From: Blastobasis lacticolella
Taxonomy: Eukaryota; Arthropoda; Insecta; Lepidoptera; Blastobasidae
Direction: 5' to 3'
NCBI GenBank assembly: GCA_905147135.1
Contig: LR990067.1
Span: 4,030,001 to 4,094,000, forward strand
DNA length: 64,000 nt
Both the position numbers and the translations under genes were made by a program. Below the pieces are notes generated by a model that did no database searches, was not told the origin of the DNA, and saw only the letters and a list, made by a program, of their open reading frames with translations. This document shows, piece after piece, positions 41,831 through 56,342 of this stretch; positions within the stretch are counted from its first letter, which is position 1; every line of letters starts with the position of its first letter.

Positions 41831-42074
41831 GTAATTGTTCCTACAGAACCCTTCAAATCGCGAGTCCGACTCGCACTTGACCAGTTTTTATGATAAACAC
41901 CCCTTTTTGGTGGAGTATTTGATGAGGAGCTCCCAAGTATTAACCACCCTGCATTTTTATAGCACAGCGGGTGCTGAGGCATAATTTTGCTCACCTACTA
42001 GTGATGAGTCAGGTTCAAATGTTGTAAACTTTGTCTCAAAACAATTATCCATCGATGTGGTGAAACCACTTAAA
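41831..42074. other. Nothing recognised
   Basis: No assignable sequence. Confidence 0.3.
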
Positions 42075-43421
42075 ATCATCTTGGCGTTAGTGTCCCGGTT
42101 GTGTTCTCGAGTACGAGGGCCCGGGGTCCGCCTTGACCATCATCCAGGATTTGGCGATCAGGTAATTACAGTGGAGCTCTTCGAACGCATTGTGGACTCT
42201 CGAATCCGACGGGAGTGTACAATCTCGGATTGTCAGTATGGGTTCCGGCCGGGTTGTGGGACCATGGACCCCGTATTTGCCCTAAGAACTCTCATGGAGG
42301 GATACAGATCAAGGAACACGCCCCTGTATTTCCTGTTTCTGGACATGCAGAAGGCCTTTGACTGTGTCCCTCGTGAGATGATCTGGTGGGCGTTGCGGTC
42401 CAAGTCAGTACCTGAGGCCTATATTGACATAATCCGAGACATGTACCGCGATTCCGATTCCATAGTTAGGACTGCTGTTGGCGATACCAACACTTTCCCG
42501 ATTACCGTTGGGGTACACCAGGGCTCTGTGCTCAGCCCACTTCTGTTCAACGTGATATTAGACGTACTGTCAGACAGCATCCGAGACTATCATGAGGTAC
42601 CTCCGTGGCTACTCATGTATGCTGACGATATCGCGTTGACAGACTCTGACAAGGGGCGTCTTGTCCAACGGGTGGAAAAGTGGAAGGAGTCGCTTGAGAA
42701 CGGCGGTCTGAAGATAAATGTGGCGAAGACAGAGTACATGGCTTGCAACAGTACAGACCCCCTACCCATCCGCATAGGTGAAGAGGAGGTGAAACGAACG
42801 GATCAGGCCAGATACCTGGGGTCGGTACTAAGCACAACTGGTGACATCGACAGCGACGTCAAAGCCCGAATATCCGCGGCTTGGGCAAAGTGGCGGGAGG
42901 TGACGGCTGTCATTTGTGACCCCAAGATGCCGATGAAACTGAAGGGACAGGTCTACAAGTCCATTATTAGACCTGTTCTCTTATACGGCAGCGAGACTTG
43001 GCCTCTACTAGAGCGACACAAGCAGGAGTTGCGAGTCACGGAAATGAAGATGCTGCGGTGGATGTGTGGGGTTTCCCGCAAAGATCGCGTGCGGAGCGCC
43101 CACATCCGCGGTAGCCTTCGTGTCCGTGACATCGCAGATAAGCTACAGGAGTGTCGCCTTCGATGGTATGGCCACGTCTTGCGCAAACCGGCAAATTATG
43201 TGGGGAACAGATGTCTGGCCATGCCGCCCCCACCAGGCACGAGAAGGAGAGGCCGGCCCAAGAAGCGATGGCTGGACGTCGTTAAGAGTGACATGCGTGC
43301 CAACGGACTCACTATGAAGGATGCCGAAGACCGAGCAAAGTGGACTAGACATAGCAGGAAGGCGGACCCCGGGCACCCGCGTGTAGCGCGGGGGCGCAAC
43401 CGGGATTTAACGCCGAGATGA
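42057..43421 (+). CDS. RTE-like reverse transcriptase, 5'-truncated, intact frame
   Basis: A 454-codon open frame. The first 40 codons are translated SINE-A sequence; the LINE protein proper starts near L41 (LFERIVDSRI). Motifs of a non-LTR reverse transcriptase follow in order: FRPGCGTMDPVFALRTL (template-binding region), LFLDMQKAFD with catalytic D96, GVHQGSVLSPLLFN around Q155, and the YADD active site at 188-191 (second and third catalytic Asp). Then come GLKINVAKTEYM, the thumb-like region with LLYGSETWPLLERHKQELRV and MKMLRWMCGVSRKDRVRSAH, and the C-terminal RLRWYGHVLRKP and RGRPKKRWLDVVKSDMRANG blocks. The N-terminal endonuclease and the start of the polymerase are missing, so it cannot retrotranspose itself. 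The start codon is an accident of the host SINE. The stop lies inside the terminal repeat, so the 3' untranslated region is almost nil, as in RTE elements. No frame damage: a young copy. Confidence 0.9.
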   Translation: MVKPLKIILALVSRLCSRVRGPGVRLDHHPGFGDQVITVELFERIVDSRIRRECTISDCQYGFRPGCGTMDPVFALRTLMEGYRSRNTPLYFLFLDMQKAFDCVPREMIWWALRSKSVPEAYIDIIRDMYRDSDSIVRTAVGDTNTFPITVGVHQGSVLSPLLFNVILDVLSDSIRDYHEVPPWLLMYADDIALTDSDKGRLVQRVEKWKESLENGGLKINVAKTEYMACNSTDPLPIRIGEEEVKRTDQARYLGSVLSTTGDIDSDVKARISAAWAKWREVTAVICDPKMPMKLKGQVYKSIIRPVLLYGSETWPLLERHKQELRVTEMKMLRWMCGVSRKDRVRSAHIRGSLRVRDIADKLQECRLRWYGHVLRKPANYVGNRCLAMPPPPGTRRRGRPKKRWLDVVKSDMRANGLTMKDAEDRAKWTRHSRKADPGHPRVARGRNRDLTPR

Positions 43422-48267: not shown

Positions 48268-48380
48268 TACTTAATACATTTTTTCTCGAAAAAAAAAAAA
48301 AACAGTCCCCATAATTTTAATTTTTTCTTTTCAGGTACGAGCACTAAGCTACCTAAATTACGTCGTACCAACCTAGACTA
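48268..48380. other. Flank of the foldback element
   Basis: Includes the left copy of the 9-bp duplication CCTAGACTA at 48372-48380. Confidence 0.7.
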
Positions 48381-49698
48381 ACGTCTGTAAAGCTAGCATA
48401 AGAAAGTGAGCAGAATCGTTTGTAATTCTGCTCAGAATTGAGTGCTAATTGAGTGCTAATTTAGTGCCAAATTCGCAAATTTGGTGCTCCATAAGATTTG
48501 CAGAAAATACAAATACTGCTACCTTTTGATCAAGCTAGCAGAGTACATGCCTAAATGCCTAAAACAGAATGACACAGCTTTACAATCAATGATATAATAT
48601 TTAGTGCTAATTAAGTGCTCTTGATATATAGAGATGAGAATTTCAAAAATGCGAAAAAATTTTTTTTTTTATTTTTTTTAATAAGAAAAGTGCTAGTTTG
48701 ACAGAAACAGCAAGTAATATCATCAGTATCGAGTATTTTGAGAGCATAACGATGGATGGACAGGGCGTAGGAATTAAGTGCTCAATAAGTGCTGTCGACA
48801 TGAGAAGGAAAAAGGATCAAAGAACATTTTTTTTTATGTTTTCAGCGGGTAACTGCTAGTTTAACAGAAACAGCAAGTAATATCTTAAAATCGAGTACTT
48901 TGAGAGCATAACGATAGATAGACAGGGCGTAGGAATTAAGTGCTCAATAAGTGCTGTCGATATGAGATGAAAAAACAATAGATTTTTTTTTTTGCATCGA
49001 GTAACTGCTCGTTTGACAGAAACAGCAAATAATATCTTTAAAATCGAGTACTTTAAGAGCATAACGATGGATGGACAGGGCGTAGCAATTAAGTGCTCAA
49101 TAAGTGCTGTCGATATGAGATGAAAAAACCATAGAAACATATTTTTTTTTATTTTTGCATCGAGTAACTGCTCGTTTGTCAGAAACAGCAAGTAATATCT
49201 TCAAAATCGAGTACTTTGAGAGCATAACGATGGGAGGACAGGGCGTAGGAATTAAGTGCTCAATAAGTGCTGTCGATATGAGAAGAAAAAAAGATCAAAG
49301 AAGGTGTTTTTCTAATTTTTCATTGGAATACTGCTAGTTTGACAGAAATAGCAAGTAATATCTTTAAAATCGAGTACTTTGAGAGCATAACGATGGAAGG
49401 ACCGAGCGTAGGAATTAAGTGCTCAATAAGTGCTGTCGACATGAGAAGGAAAAAGGATCAAAGAAGATTTTTTTTATGTTTTCAGCGGGTAACTGCTAGT
49501 TTAACAGAAACAGCAAGTAATATCTTAAAATCGAGTACTTTGAGAGCATAACGATGGGTGGAGCGGGCGTAGGAATTAAGTGCTCAATAAGTGCTGTCGA
49601 TATGAGATGAAAAAACAACCGTTTTTTTTTTTGCATCGAGTAACTGCTCTTTTTTCAGAAACAGCAAGTAATATCTTTAAAATCGAGTACTTTGAGAA
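48381..49698 (+). repeat. Left arm of the foldback element: unique end plus 7 subrepeats
   Basis: 48381-48627: terminal block with AGTGCT-rich sequence. 48628-48690: spacer GAGATGAGAATTTCAAAAAT and T-run. The ACAGAAACAGCAAG unit starts lie at 48701, 48864, 49016, 49179, 49342, 49504 and 49655 (spacing 163, 152, 163, 163, 162, 151). Junction types by the bases before each restart: A (CAGCGGGTAACTGC), B (GCATCGAGTAACTGC), C (CATTGGAATACTGC), in the order A B B C A B. Unit 7 stops after ~44 bp at the loop. Confidence 0.9.
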
Positions 49699-49777
49699 CT
49701 AGCATATTCTGTAATGACTTCCAATACCTGTTCTTTTGCAACAGATGGCTTTCGCCCTGGTTTTAAGTCTCTCTATG
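49699..49777 (-). other. 79-bp loop with protein-like minus frame
   Basis: The only sequence in the foldback core not repeated on the other arm. The minus strand reads without a stop as RDLKPGRKPSVAKEQVLEVI then TEYAS. It looks more like real coding sequence (basic PGRKP followed by a predicted helix) than like AT-rich spacer. Could be a remnant of an element protein or of a captured exon. No family named. Confidence 0.45.
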
Positions 49778-50840
49778 TTCTCAAAGTACTCGATTTTGAA
49801 GATATTACTTGCTGTTTCTGTCAAACTAGCAGTATTCCCATGAGAAATTAAAAAAACATATTTGATCTTTTTTTCTTCTCATATCGACAGCACTTATTGA
49901 GCACTTAATTCCTACGCCCTGTCCATCCACCATTATGCTCTTAAAGTACTCGATTTTAAAGATATTACTTGCTGTTTCTGTCAAACGAGCAGTTACTCGA
50001 TGCAAAAAAAAAATCGATTGTTTTTTCATCTCATATCGACAGCACTTATTGAGCACTTAATTCCTACGCCCTGTCCATGCATCGTTATGCTCTTGAAGTA
50101 CTCGATTTTAAGATATTACTTGCTGTTTCTGTTAAACTAGCAGTTACCCGCTAAAAAAAAAAATTTTTTTGATCCTTTTTCCTTCTCATGTCGACAGCAC
50201 TTATTGAGCACTTAATTCCTACGCCCTGTCCACCCATCGTTATGCTCTCAAAGTACTCGATTTTAAAGTACAAAGTACTGCTGTTTCTGTCAAACTAGCA
50301 ATATTCCCATGAAAAATAAAAAAAAATCTTCTTTGATCTTTTTTTCTTCTCATATCGACAGCACTTATTGAGCACTTAATTGCTACGCCCTGTCCATGCA
50401 TCGTTATGCTCTTGAAGTACTCGATTTTAAAGATATTACTTGCTGTTTCTGTCAAACGAGCAGTTACACGATGCAAAAAAAAAAATCTATTGTTTTTTCA
50501 TCTCTTATCGACAGCACTTATTGAGCACTTAATTCCTACGCCCTGTCCATCTATCGTTATGCTCTCAAAGTACTCGATTTTAAAGATATTACTTGCTGTT
50601 TCTGTTAAACTAGCAGTTACCCGCTGAAAACATAAAAAAAATGTTCTTTGATCCTTTTTCCTTGTCATGTCGACAGCACTTATTGAGCACTTAATTCCTA
50701 CGCCCTGTCCATCCATCATTATGCTCTCAAAATACTCGATACTGATGATATTACTTGCTGTTTCAGTCAAACTAGCACTTTTCTTATTAAAAAAATAAAA
50801 AAAAAAAAATTTTCGCATTTTTGAAATTCTCATCTCTATA
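49778..50840 (-). repeat. Right arm of the foldback element, inner part: 7 subrepeats
   Basis: Mirror image of the left arm. The CTGTTTCTGT unit marks lie near 49811, 49974, 50126, 50280, 50443, 50601 and 50757. Junction types from the outside to the loop: A B C A B C. The left arm has an extra B in place of this strict order. Ends TTGAAATTCTCATCTCTATA at 50840, where the mariner-bounded insertion starts. Confidence 0.9.
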
Positions 50841-51466
50841 CAGGGTGTTTCATAATACATGTATAAAGCCGTGAACTGGATGGAGTGCTAAACGTATTAA
50901 AACGATAGGTACAATTATTTTTTTCGTGCGTGGAATAGTTACCGAGAAAATGACTATCGAACTTTTTCTTTTTCAATGTCGATAATCACATTTTGAAAAC
51001 GAAAGACCGCATCTCTAGAAATCAGTTGTAATAGATCACTCAAGTTCATAATCAGGTCAATCAACTGAATAATACAATTTTACCAGTTACAGATAGGATA
51101 TAGGTTTTGTGCCTTTAAGTCTTTTCTACCTACCGTTTCATATGAGTTTTAAAATTCAATCAAAAGATCACTACGATCAATACCTCAAGTGGCTGGTTAA
51201 TAAAATTATTATTACAAGCAGCTCGTGAGCAGTCCGGCACAAAAACAAGACATTTCGATGTTTGTTTCTACTTTAATTTATTTGTTTTTTGTTGCCTTCA
51301 ACACAATGTTGCACCTAGATACATAGTCTTCAAACTAATTGCGAAAACACAATAAACATTAATAGGCAAAAAAGTTACAGCTTGATTTCGCGTCTGCGCC
51401 ATATCTTCTATTGTACTAGGCGGTCATGACTGAAGCAGGTGGACTATGTACGGGATACTGATATCA

Positions 51467-51645
51467 CAGGGTGTCCATAAAGTACATTCACTAGATTTTA
51501 ATATTTTTGGAAAGTGCAGCAAAACTACACGATATTGTTGTTATACTTTTTTGTCTATTTTTTCACTCAGTTTACATCCTGTTGAATGCATGTGGTGAGT
51601 CTTGGCACAAGTTTATGCATTTCTCGTTGAACTTTTCCGCCAGCT
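51467..51645 (-). pseudogene. Mariner-like transposase C-terminus and end (remnant)
   Basis: Plus strand CAGGGTGTCCATAAAGTACA at 51467 looks like a second mariner-type terminus. The minus strand just inside it reads VQREMHKLVPRLTTCIQQDV and N, then a stop, reminiscent of the last residues of mariner-type transposases (LxxRxxxCI). The DDE core is not found. Confidence 0.4.
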
Positions 51646-53557
51646 ACGAAATAAGGAAAGATGTCATTTTAGTACCTATCTAATAGTAATTATTAAATTC
51701 TACTCATGTTTGAATTCAAGAAGATGAATATTAAATTTGAATAGCTGAAAAAATACCTAGCAACACTATTTACGTACTAGGATTTAAGCATTTAGGTTGC
51801 AGGCAACAAACATGCAGAACAGCAGATGCGTTGTCACTGTGAGGACTAAGATGAAATGCGTCATGCCTGTATTTGCACTGGCTTATTTTATGGACACCCC
51901 ACGTACTAGGCGCAATATTAAGGAGGTCTACATAATCCGTTTTGTATTTTTTGGTTTCGAGGGTTCTGTACAAAAAAATATTGTAATCAATTATGATTTT
52001 AATTCAAAAGGTTCATTTATAGTTTTTACGAAAGTGCACCACCACCTAACTAATAGCAAAGTAGTCTTATTCAAATTACTGTAGCATATTAATGTAGCAA
52101 ACTCTAATTAATGTAACATCTTTGTCTTTTTACGAGTTTGCTTTCTCATGTCATGTCTGTCAGTCATGTTTCAGTGTCGCGTAGGTAATCGTACCTATCG
52201 TTTTCACGAACATTTCTTATCAACTAAAATTAACTTAATGATTCTTAGTTGATGGAGCTTTACCTGTAAATATCCCATGCTTCACCCAATTGGAGAACCT
52301 AGGTCACCTAGGTGGAGCACGGACCCAAACACAATTTTAGAAATTACTGTCTAGGTTACTGTCATTGTACCAAACTACCCGATAAAATCGTGATAAGCAA
52401 ATGTAGGCCATCGCCATAAGGATTATTATTAAGCCCACAGTTGGATTCGCTTGAGACTCACTTTAACAAATAAAAAAAAATCAACATTATGGTGCAACTA
52501 CCAGGAGAACATAAAACGAGAGAACATAAAAGGCGAAATAAGTTAGACCCCTAAAACACGGATCCCTAAGTACGAATCCTTTTGCACGTGCCGTCAAGGT
52601 CAAGGCCGGCGCCGGAGCTGTGGCGGCGCTTTTGACATCAAAATAGAAACTGAAAGCTACAAAATCTAAAAATAGAATACTTTGGCGGGCCGTTCTTTAT
52701 TTTGTGGTTTGACCCACGGCGCGACTTCCATTGACGAAATTTGCCTACTTTCGCGTCGTATTCGTTCATTCAGTTTTTAGCTTTTCGCGTGACCGAAATG
52801 ATTGTTGCGTTGTAGTTGTAGGATACCTAAGTACCTATTGTGAAGATAACTGTGATAAGAGTGTTAACGATGTGAACGAATGATTTATAGCTTCAGGTAC
52901 CAGTATTAACGTAGTCTTGTCTGTGTTCAGCGTTCAACGTTTAAGTATTGTGATAATCATGATTCTGTGTATGAATGCAAGCTAGCAGTAGGCCAAACAC
53001 CATGGTACCTACCTATTTACGTATTGCATAGCAACCAGAGCCTGCGTAGTGTTGTGTATCTGTGTGTATGGAGTGTACCTACCTAGCTACGCTACGATAC
53101 GAGTGCAAGCTTACTTGATAGTTAATACCTATCAGTCATCCGAGCCACAAGAAAGCAAGAAAGTATGGCACCTGACGCTGTTTGTTTTCATAAAATAACT
53201 TTAAAAAGGTACGTACCACCTACATGCTTTAAAGGTCTAGGTTCTAGCTAGACTTTAAGATATGCTACCTAGCTAGTACCTAATCGTAACGTTAGGAGGT
53301 TCTTTTCCGACGGGAAATAGGCAGAAAAGACAACGCTTTTATCTGTTCATGAAAACATGTAGGTATTTAGTAAAACCTGTCTGTAATCTGTTTCAACAAA
53401 ACTAGTCTCATAAGTGGTTCCCTACGCTACGTAGGTCCCTAGATGAGTGAACCATTTTAGTAGGACATAGTACCTACTTATTTGTGTAGAACGATTTATC
53501 AATTGAACGAATTCTGTTTTAGTTATGTAGCTATCTTTAGTATGTTTTTCAAGAACG
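51646..53557. other. Unique-looking DNA inside the 5.2-kb insertion
   Basis: About 51789-51845 (TTTAGGTTGCAGGCAACAAA, GATGCGTTGTCACTGTGAGG) is an inverted piece of the ACAACGCACCTGCGG-type LINE end. Other blocks (52590-52800, GC-richer) match nothing else in the window. No convincing gene. Confidence 0.4.
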
Positions 53558-55000
53558 TTGGTGGCTGGGCGGTTGAGTATCCGACGTAAGCGAGAGAGGT
53601 GCCGGGTTCGAATCCCGCTGTGGCAATGTACCAATGACTCTTTTCTGAGTTCAGTGGCGTTACTGTCATACAAGCCCAAAAGCCGGGCTTGCCTTATAAA
53701 AATAATTATCGATAAAAAATCAAAGATAATGCGAGCGCGAACTATTTAAAGTTCGCGCTCCTAATGCAATGAGCAGTTTTCCAATAGGTATCTAAAGCAT
53801 TCTTAACCACTCACTAGATGGCGCCCTGACAATTTTGGTAATTGATAATCGCTTGAAATAGGTTCTTAGCAAATAGGATATAAACACTGGGTACGTTGTA
53901 TTGGATAATATTGTATTTGTCAATAGTTTTCAACCATTTTAGAGGTTGTAATAATAATGGAACATAGTACCAACTTCAATAAATATATCTTTTTACACTT
54001 TGTTCAACCTTTAACAGTTATGTTTATATTAATAAACATTTTATTTTTAAGTTTAGTATTAGTTGGCTGCCTGAAATCACTGCCACCATCATACAGATTA
54101 TAAAAAAATTACCAAAATTGTAGGAGCGCCATCTATTGATGCTTTTTGAAACCAACTATCAATACCTACTGGAAAACTCCTCATTCAAACTGCCGCGCCG
54201 CAAAGCAGCGCCATCGTGCGCCCAGGTTACGAAACACGATCCGAACGCACACGCAAGTTGAGGAAATTGAGACTCGGTCAGTCATCTCGCTCGCACGCGC
54301 TGGCTTGTAAGCGGGCTTTGATTCCGGCCGGTATGTCTCTTTCTTACATATGAAAACTGTCCTATAATGAGATATAACTATACGTTTGTTTATATGGTAA
54401 ATTGTACGAGACTTTAAGCCCTGCATGCGTATGAAGTTGTACACGGATCTTTGAAATTGGCAACTTCGCGCATGCGCAGTAGGTACGTTTGTTGAATGCT
54501 GTAATACGTACCAACTTCACTATTGTTTTGTTTGAGCTGTTTGGGCGGATAAGTAATTAGTTTTTTGTTGTGTTTGTGTTGTGTTTTGTAGTAAAAGTGA
54601 TTTAATTAGATTGATTAACAATAGACGAAGTAGAGTCCCTTGTGATGGTTTAAAATGTGCACAAGTTTTGATTTGCATGGAAAAGGTAAAGTTTATAATC
54701 ATTTCTCAGAAAATAACAAATTATTTCCGTAATGTGGCAAGGGGATGGATTTATTTTTAATAACCGTAAAAACTACACAAACTTCATCTCTCGGCTTGCC
54801 TTACTCTGAACCCCTAGGCACGCCACTGTCTGAGTTATGTACATTAGTTGAAATTAACCGATGCTCCTATGGTGAGGGAAACATCATGATGAAATCTGCA
54901 AATTCTGGCAACTGAAATTGTAACCATGATCCAATCGAGTCAGGTTCCCCTGGTAGCAGGGTCATGGAGGTCAAATGGTAGTCGCTCCACTGTAACAAAT
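53558..55000 (+). mobile_element. SINE-A split by the hAT element
   Basis: 53558-53651: GTTGGTGGCTGGGCGGTTGA, GTGCCGGGTTCGAATCCCG, to TTTTCTGAGTT. 54829-55000: TCTGAGTTATGTACATTAGT to GGTAGTCGCTCCACTGTAA. Tail truncated. An inverted SINE-A follows 25 bp later. Confidence 0.9.
53652..54828. mobile_element. hAT element, non-autonomous, 1177 bp
   Basis: Termini CAGTGGCGTTACTG and (inverted) CAGTGGCGTGCCTAGGGG. 8-bp duplication TCTGAGTT at 53644-53651 and 54829-54836. CAGTGGCGT ends are classic hAT. Contains a 28-bp palindrome at 53733-53760 (GAGCGCGAAC / GTTCGCGCTC). Minus frames at 54181-54444 and 54520-54702 show no BED finger or hATC dimerisation signature, so no transposase. Confidence 0.92.
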
Positions 55001-55024
55001 TCTTTTCTCTCCACAAAATTATTA

Positions 55025-55345
55025 GACTATGGTCCATGATCTAGGATTTGGCAGATTAGGTAATTAATTGCAGTGGAGCGACTGCCATCTGACATTCCTG
55101 GCTCCTAACCCTGCTACCAAGGGAACCTGACCAGATTTGATCATGGTTACTTACACATTCAGTCGTCTGAACTGAATGTGTAAGTTTCATCACGATGATT
55201 TCCCTCACCGTAAAAGCATCGGTTAGTATTCAGCTACTGTGCATAACTTAGAAAAGAGTTAGTGGTACATGGCGGCAGTGGGATTCGAACCCGGTACCTC
55301 ACGCGTACGAGTCGGATACCGCAACCTTAGGCCACCGACGCTCCG
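55025..55345 (-). mobile_element. SINE-A, tail end missing
   Basis: CTATGGTCCATGATCTAGGA to GGCCACCGACGCTCC. Inverted B box GGGATTCGAACCCGGTACC. Two small internal duplications (TTAATTGCAG; ACTTACACATTCAG). Forms an inverted pair with the SINE-A at 53558. Confidence 0.88.
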
Positions 55346-55445
55346 ACTATTTAAGCATACCTACCTATCGAAAATAATTAGTGTAGGCAAGTTCCTAGTT
55401 AATTTGGTAGAGCCTATTCATAAGTAGGTAACATTTAGTACGACG

Positions 55446-55887
55446 CCTGGTAGTAAGATGAAGGAGGTTGGTTTGTTTTGATATGAATGGCACGAGGTTA
55501 TTACTCGTCCTTATGGTGTGTACACACTCAACGTACGCCAACGAAGGGCTGTCGGCCGAATTATTTGGACTTCTAAGGTCTAATACTTGCATTTCGTGGT
55601 CAAGCAAACGATCTTTGGGAGTTTTGGGAACCGATTCGGGCTCGTATTTGCACGTTTGTTTGTTGGCCTTCGGTATCCGCCCAAACTGCGATTGGATGAT
55701 TACTTCTATCCGTTTGATGTTACCGCCACGCTGCACTGCGGATTGCCGGCCGGCACACGCCAACGGGACAATCGTTGGCCGAAACGGGTGCGCGTTACAC
55801 ATCGCCCGGTGTGTACGCAGCATTAGGCTCCTGGTAGTAGGCTTGAGGAGGTTGCTTTGTTTCGATAGGGGTCGCACGAGGTTGTTA
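55446..55887. repeat. 58-bp direct repeats 384 bp apart, open on both strands
   Basis: 55446-55503 and 55830-55887 both start CCTGGTAGTA and end CACGAGGTTNTTA, differing at about 11 of 58 positions. Between them lies a GTGTAC-bounded, GC-richer block with AACG/CGTT elements in inverse order (ACGCCAACGA, AATCGTTGGCC). A 164-codon plus frame (55468-55962) and a 160-codon minus frame (55395-55877) overlap here. The minus frame repeats the peptide NNLV..(L/I)SKQ(S/T)NLL..TTR because of the direct repeats. I cannot name a protein; it is probably a composite repeat. Confidence 0.55.
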
Positions 55888-56054
55888 ACCTGTTTTTTAT
55901 ATGATCATCAACTTCAAATAGAGCTGCGCTTCAACGTAGTCGATATGGTTATTTATCTTTAAAAATTAATTTTTTTTATTAAAATTAAAATTCAATGTCC
56001 GGATAAAATGAAGTCGCCAGTGCACTCTTTGAAAGCTCTACTTTAACACCCTTT
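55888..56054. other. Right subterminal part of the 5.2-kb insertion
   Basis: A/T-rich run near 55960-55995, then sequence up to the 31-bp terminus. No gene. Confidence 0.4.
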
Positions 56055-56087
56055 CGGCTTTATACATGTATTATGAAACACCCTGTA

Positions 56088-56333
56088 TATCAAGAGCACT
56101 TAATTAGCACTAAATATTATATCATTGATTGTAAAGCTGTGTCATTCTGTTTTAGGCATTTAGGCATGTACTCTGCTAGCTTGATCAAAAGGTAGCAGTA
56201 TTTGTATTTTCTGCAAATCTTATGGAGCACCAAATTTGCGAATTTGGCACTAAATTAGCACTCAATTAGCACTAAATTCTGAGCAGAATTACAAACGATT
56301 CTGCTCACTTTCTTATGCTAGCTTTATAGACGT
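56088..56333 (-). repeat. Right arm of the foldback element, outer end
   Basis: TATCAAGAGCACTTAATTAG to TATGCTAGCTTTATAGACGT. Inverted copy of 48381-48620 with few differences, separated from its inner arm by the 5.2-kb insertion. Confidence 0.9.
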
Positions 56334-56342
56334 CCTAGACTA

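Follow-up and report, generated by a model that had tools for sequence, protein, structure and literature searches.

The 64-kb stretch of the Blastobasis lacticolella genome analyzed here (the window) carries a mobile foldback element that belongs to a young family of a kind already known. This element is very probably a nonautonomous derivative of a Rehavkus-type, Mutator-related transposon. A first-pass annotation of the window had read the span from 48381 to 56333 as one foldback transposon with mirror-image arms of tandem repeats and a 9-bp target duplication. Self-comparison of the window bears out inverted arms of tandem subrepeats, with arrays at 48691-49697 and 49774-50777, around a short loop, the structure by which foldbacks are recognized. 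The outer inverted ends, put at ~235 bp in that annotation, are real, lie at 48381-48631 and 56083-56333, and are 99% complementary. The proposed duplication is present as well: CCTAGACTA occupies exactly 48372-48380 and 56334-56342 and has no third occurrence in the window. For the window copy, insertion is thus backed by a perfect duplication together with membership in a family. The outer limits of the element stand, but the single 7.9-kb element does not, since the inner 5,245 bp are a separate TA-flanked insert at 50841-56085. Once this nested insert is removed, the foldback proper measures 2,706 bp (Table 1). Six subrepeats in each arm carry the seed motif by which units were recognized, and the seven per arm counted originally fit if the partial innermost unit is included; the Tandem Repeats Finder (TRF) copy numbers of the two arrays are 6.3 and 6.4. 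Mirror order holds approximately and not exactly: from the outside inward, the left arm has the unit types DABBCA and the right arm DABCAB, so that the arms match in part only.

Table 1. Parts of the foldback copy in the window and the element nested in its right arm
Feature	Positions	Strand	Remark
Left 9-bp target-site duplication	48372..48380	+	CCTAGACTA
Left outer end, ~260 bp	48381..48640	+	Outside the array; starts ACGTCTGTAAAG
Left subrepeat array, ~160-bp units	48691..49697	+	Six seed-motif units and a partial innermost unit
Loop	49698..49769	-	Remnant like the start of a transposase gene; codons 2-25 of MDLKPGRKPSVPKEQVLEVITEYAS, shortened
Right subrepeat array, inverted	49774..50800	-	Six seed-motif units and a partial innermost unit
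Inner stub of right outer end	50801..50840	-	Severed by the nested insertion, whose TA forms the final two bases of the stub
Nested 5,245-bp element	50841..56085	.	CAGGGTG...CACCCTG; outside the foldback
Right outer end of foldback	56086..56333	-	Finishes CTTTATAGACGT
Right 9-bp target-site duplication	56334..56342	+	CCTAGACTA

We searched the genome assembly (577 Mb, 45 contigs) for relatives of this copy. The 260-bp end of the window copy found 68 candidate places, 40 of which were scored and showed 98-100% identity. A search with the 26-mer tip, allowing up to 3 mismatches, likewise returned 68 ends, against 0 for the reversed control. These ends make up 31 two-ended copies and 6 single ends (L037, L046-L050), all of which were retrieved and underlie the copy counts given here. 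The two-ended copies span 650-4,403 bp, with the window copy taken without its insert, and share ACGTCTRTAAAG-type tips at dispersed loci. A perfect 9-bp duplication flanks 29 of the 31 (24/24 and 5/6 by batch), and the duplicated 9-mers have no strong consensus. For one copy, L043, the empty site could be compared directly: it sits in a common repeat, and none of 18 other copies of this repeat, taken from the window and the retrieved loci and aligned across the site, contains the element. GTAGAATAG appears exactly once in 10 of these 18, with changed letters or gaps in the other 8. Dispersed copies, target duplications, and this empty site together mark the family as mobile. Divergence of the ends from their consensus has a median of 0.8% and a mean of 1.5% (61 ends, 31 copies), the mean being raised by L053 (17%), whose right end is probably rearranged; the low median indicates that the family is young. 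Two exact patterns of the family had 0 matches in viral contigs. Further copies with the same ends, whose absence would have refuted the first-pass annotation, were found in number, and with 31 two-ended copies at separate loci the structure lies far beyond chance and does not stem from a one-off assembly inversion. The annotation's suggestion of a foldback or Mutator-like element (MULE), possibly of an undescribed family, agrees with the shared ends, the 9-bp duplications, and the Mutator-related transposase evidence given below. We found no description of the family in the open-licence literature; one may exist in Repbase or in supplementary tables (e.g., those of PMC13359780).

Some variation among the copies was also observed. 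L030 and L042 combine ACGTCTGTAAAG tips with a different loop (around GTGTTTCCATAAATAGTTATAC) and perhaps represent a second subfamily; the window copy carries one tip of each kind. The loop of L044 has been replaced or invaded by sequence like a common genomic repeat. L024 and L045 lie at different loci but entered one kind of host repeat (GAGCTCTTATAGCAGGACCTAAACAG) at overlapping positions, the starts of their targets being separated by 7 bp.

The link to a transposase begins with the loop, which encodes all or part of MDLKPGRKPSVPKEQVLEVITEYAS in 15 of the 31 copies; the loop of the window copy has codons 2-25, read from the minus strand. Fourteen of these loops keep the ATG, seven of the fourteen are preserved letter for letter, and those of L027 and L032 are altered or shortened. 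The same genome holds a transposase family whose N-terminus the peptide resembles. One broken member of that family, the C8 copy, has an end of the foldback family downstream. Two other relatives, L059 (1034-5812) and L060 (1502-6302), are 4.8-kb transposons that retain both ends and show long inverted repeats as well as 9-bp duplications. An open frame of 715 codons in L059 has no Pfam match, and the frame of L060 contains a stop. Pfam identifies Znf_SCAND3 in the C8 copy (E 5.5e-07) and also in L058, and does not call a PHD finger; NCBIfam had no match in four relatives. For the predicted fold of one relative, VIA-align gave ISCth4 as the best match. Taken together, these transposase data point toward the Mutator-related (Rehavkus-type) group.

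The structural features agree with this assignment. Rehavkus elements are described as combining a 9-bp duplication and a PHD finger with inverted ends of 26-400 bp and, ahead of the 3' end, a minisatellite (PMC6446971). The 9-bp duplication is present in the foldback copies counted above and in L059 and L060, and long inverted ends with an internal minisatellite are found here as ~160-bp units in both arms. The same source indicates that Rehavkus is known from very few descriptions, in 2019 from Repbase only (PMC6446971), and a survey reporting complete Mutator-like elements in 88 lepidopteran species used Rehavkus as an outgroup (PMC13359780).

Other routes to a source gene gave little. Apart from the short loop remnant in 15 copies, no recognizable transposase occurs in the 31 two-ended copies, and comparison of the foldback copies with the proteins of 19 relatives returned no match beyond that remnant. 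At an E cut-off of 1e-3, none of the 19 transposase relatives matched single ends L037 and L047-L050, pairs L051-L056, or the nested element. The loop DNA itself occurs at 15 genomic places, all of them foldbacks (including L045, at 1,231 bp), and does not lead to a source gene. Long end-to-end distances reveal no autonomous copy either, as all pairs except the window copy are at most 4.4 kb apart. A ubiquitin-hydrolase-like C-terminus suspected by eye in the C8 copy had no Pfam match in the C8 pieces; UCH was reported in relative P0016 only, below the cut-off (E 2.1e-04).

Several observations weigh against a Rehavkus-type origin. The loop peptide is gone or replaced by another loop in 16 of the 31 copies. 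Where present it is short, and its N-terminal match is modest when taken alone; KxGRxP motifs of the kind it contains are common. The peptide has no match in Pfam, and a search of a protein collection with the loop joined to the first exon of a relative also had none. The C8 gene, the one transposase found with a matching end, lacks the left end and has broken frames, and no intact transposase with ends of the foldback family was found. The tips of L059 and L060 are different and these relatives lack such arrays, and the surroundings of L058 and L061 showed neither inverted repeats nor matching ends. The structure model of the relative is of middling quality (pLDDT 67), and Foldseek alone places the P element first for its predicted fold. 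Two copies depart from a perfect 9-bp duplication: in L051 8 of the 9 positions match, and L045 has an 8-bp duplication. Lastly, the name Rehavkus was assigned from published features and not by comparison with Repbase sequences, which makes it a strong lead, not proof.

We weighed three other explanations for the family. A Galileo-like foldback of the P superfamily would have the same architecture and be moved by a THAP-domain P-type transposase. Galileo is reported to be flanked by 7-bp duplications (PMC3573991), whereas the copies described here have 9 bp in 29 of 31 cases. Pfam detected no THAP domain in the relatives scanned or in the C8 transposase pieces, which come from a gene without its N-terminus, and we regard a P-superfamily origin as very improbable. 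The second explanation is a Phantom/NOF or other classical MULE foldback with FLYWCH and MULE domains. Tm1 of nematodes is of this kind, described as having a Phantom-type transposase, 9-bp duplications, and inverted ends that are composite and vary (PMC3169594). The Rehavkus-type C8 copy would then only share captured ends with the family. Neither FLYWCH nor MULE was found by Pfam in the relatives scanned or in the C8 gene, which is the only transposase gene found beside an end of the family and lacks its N-terminal part, and this origin also seems improbable to us.

The third explanation dispenses with transposition: an inverted satellite block, spread by segmental duplication or produced by faulty assembly. 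Most of the length of the element is indeed tandem repeat, which is prone to assembler mis-joins, and array order varies between copies. Against this, the copies have common tips at separate loci with different flanks and different 9-bp duplications, and host-repeat copies without the insert carry the target once. These observations in the main refute the satellite or artifact explanation, to which we give almost no credence. A Rehavkus-type, Mutator-related origin remains the reading that we favor.

The copies of this family also record how tandem arrays change. Units were picked with a 21-base seed allowing up to 3 errors, so that strongly diverged units are missed and seed conservation is partly built in, and array lengths are taken as assembled. 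Two-ended copies contain 2-23 recognized units (median 12), with equal counts in the two arms of 4 of the 31 copies and unequal counts in 27, such as L027 with 5 and 18 units; the short copies L043, L053, and L054 have units in one arm only. At a 9% cut, five main types account for 359 of the 375 units and 13 rare types for the other 16. Type D is the outermost unit in 58 of 59 arms and is absent from the 316 inner units, while the inner types A, B, C, and E occur in an order that differs in nearly every copy. Only L023 and L033 have a common array (2513/2529 identical, with different duplications), and thus one transposition can leave an array unchanged. As a rule, arrays turn over faster than the ends diverge. 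For the 294 inner units of the first 25 copies, the location of the nearest neighbor was compared with expectations from label shuffling. Same-arm neighbors numbered 42.0 against 6.6 expected (s.d. 2.7), opposite-arm neighbors 16.3 against 6.4 (s.d. 2.5), and neighbors from other copies 235.7 against 281.0. From these sequence relationships we infer that arrays change mostly by local duplication and loss, with some exchange between arms.

The ends and the units have one motif in common. AGTGCT-N5-AGTGCT occurs 16 times in the window, always inside the foldback, and AGTGCT pairs at other spacings from 0 to 12 occur once in total, outside it. The 31 copies contain 458 such sites (415 in the first 25), compared with 0 in 66,181 bp of flanks of 23 copies. 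Of 62 ends, 51 have a site 61 bp from the tip and 42 have one at 223 bp; the left outer end of the window copy has both. Most subrepeats also contain the motif, although the unit seed includes it and its conservation in units is partly built in. A stretch of ~40 bp is common to the unit and the inner portion of the end (local score 34; the highest of 500 shuffles was 30). Because of this stretch, the sites in the unit and the inner end probably descend from a single one; the site at 61 bp may have arisen independently. In Galileo, the THAP domain is reported to bind both within the tandem repeats and at ~70 bp from the tip (PMC3688188). In the present family, AGTGCT-N5-AGTGCT is plausibly a transposase binding site.

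Based on these observations, we propose the following history for the family. An autonomous Rehavkus-type transposon (related to Mutator and IS256, with a DDE transposase and a D(2)H motif) would have undergone an internal deletion that left two long inverted ends, the subrepeat arrays, and, in 15 of 31 copies, at most the first 25 transposase codons. Transposase supplied in trans would bind the ends, plausibly at the AGTGCT-N5-AGTGCT pairs, excise the element, and reinsert it with a 9-bp stagger. Between transpositions, the arrays would gain, lose, and reorder their inner units through local unequal exchange or slippage and, less frequently, through exchange with the opposite arm, with the tip and the outermost type D unit remaining fixed.

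The suggestion that the element could fold into a long hairpin holds in silico: without its insert, the 2.7-kb window copy has a predicted folding energy of -1988.8 kcal/mol with 93% of bases paired, compared with -599.0 kcal/mol for one base-shuffled control. A transcript would be predicted to form a long hairpin and is a possible source of double-stranded RNA (dsRNA). In maize, Mu killer, for which a hairpin RNA has been proposed, silences a Mutator family (PMC3440606). We speculate, while considering it unlikely, that foldbacks are self-made brakes on their source, feeding read-through dsRNA into a small-RNA pathway, as has been proposed for Mu killer, and titrating transposase on the many AGTGCT-N5-AGTGCT sites. 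Read-through could come from flanking promoters, and the arrays of transcribable end hairpins would be rebuilt faster than point mutations accumulate. Such a brake, if real, would fit a genome with 31 two-ended foldbacks and no intact source found.

Beyond this, the 31 young copies offer a set in which tandem arrays can be watched changing inside inverted repeats. Since the ends differ by ~1% and only one pair of copies has a common array, the question of how arrays grow and are shuffled is testable. Whether the repeats serve as transposase sites or as a source of dsRNA can be tested on the same set.

The insert in the right arm has a history of its own. Its 31-bp inverted repeats are perfect, a TA duplication (50839-50840 and 56086-56087) flanks it, and removing it restores CTCTATATATCAAG, the same sequence as in the uninterrupted arm. 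Its first 360 bp found 974 candidate places in the genome, and all 40 that were scored matched at ~100%. With at least 40 matches at this identity, it appears to be a very abundant young repeat whose family underwent a very recent burst. Its three longest frames have no Pfam match, and it holds several repeats also present elsewhere in the window. Short repeats, including those at 53552-53651 and 54829-55343, are present in many copies on both strands of the window. Some carry GGTTCGAATCC, which we take to resemble a tRNA B box, and are perhaps tRNA-derived short interspersed nuclear elements (SINEs). Elsewhere in the window, an open frame with a reverse transcriptase domain (41985-43421; Pfam RVT_1, E 5.8e-28) is probably the long open frame of a non-LTR (long terminal repeat) retrotransposon remnant.

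Foldbacks with comparable architecture have been described in several animals. Tm1 of root-knot nematodes likewise has foldback ends of variable length, 9-bp duplications, and a Mutator-type transposase (PMC3169594), and copies of Drosophila Foldback4 are similarly modular (PMC2955051). Tm1 is built of ~14-bp motifs and has a Phantom transposase with FLYWCH, whereas the units here are ~160 bp long and no FLYWCH was found in the relatives scanned. Galileo of Drosophila, in the P superfamily, also has variable tandem repeats in its inverted ends, unequal arms, and multiple THAP transposase sites in the repeats (PMC3688188, PMC3573991). It differs in its P-type transposase and 7-bp duplications from the family described here, which has 9 bp and a presumed Rehavkus-type transposase. 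Tetris of Drosophila virilis is likewise nonautonomous, with ~220-bp tandem repeats inside inverted ends (PMC4079207). Its duplications are given as 8-10 bp and its repeats as having a 37-bp stretch in common with the terminal domain (PMC4079207), much like the ~40 bp common to subrepeat and inner terminal domain here. For Tetris, the published account lists only three structurally complete copies and identifies no transposase (PMC4079207), in contrast to the 31 two-ended copies, the transposase-like loop remnant in 15, and the degenerate transposase-bearing relative of the present family.

The closest match that we found in architecture, unit length, and duplication length is Rehavkus, to whose transposase group the coding remnant in the loop and the degenerate relative with the same end tie the foldback architecture. 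Rehavkus-1_TC of Tribolium castaneum likewise has 9-bp duplications, long inverted ends, and a minisatellite near the end, and the transposase of the group carries a PHD zinc finger (PMC6446971). By its description, Rehavkus-1_TC is set apart by its length, 9.5 kb compared with 0.65-4.4 kb for the two-ended copies here, which retain at most 25 transposase codons and hold 2-23 recognized units in shuffled order.

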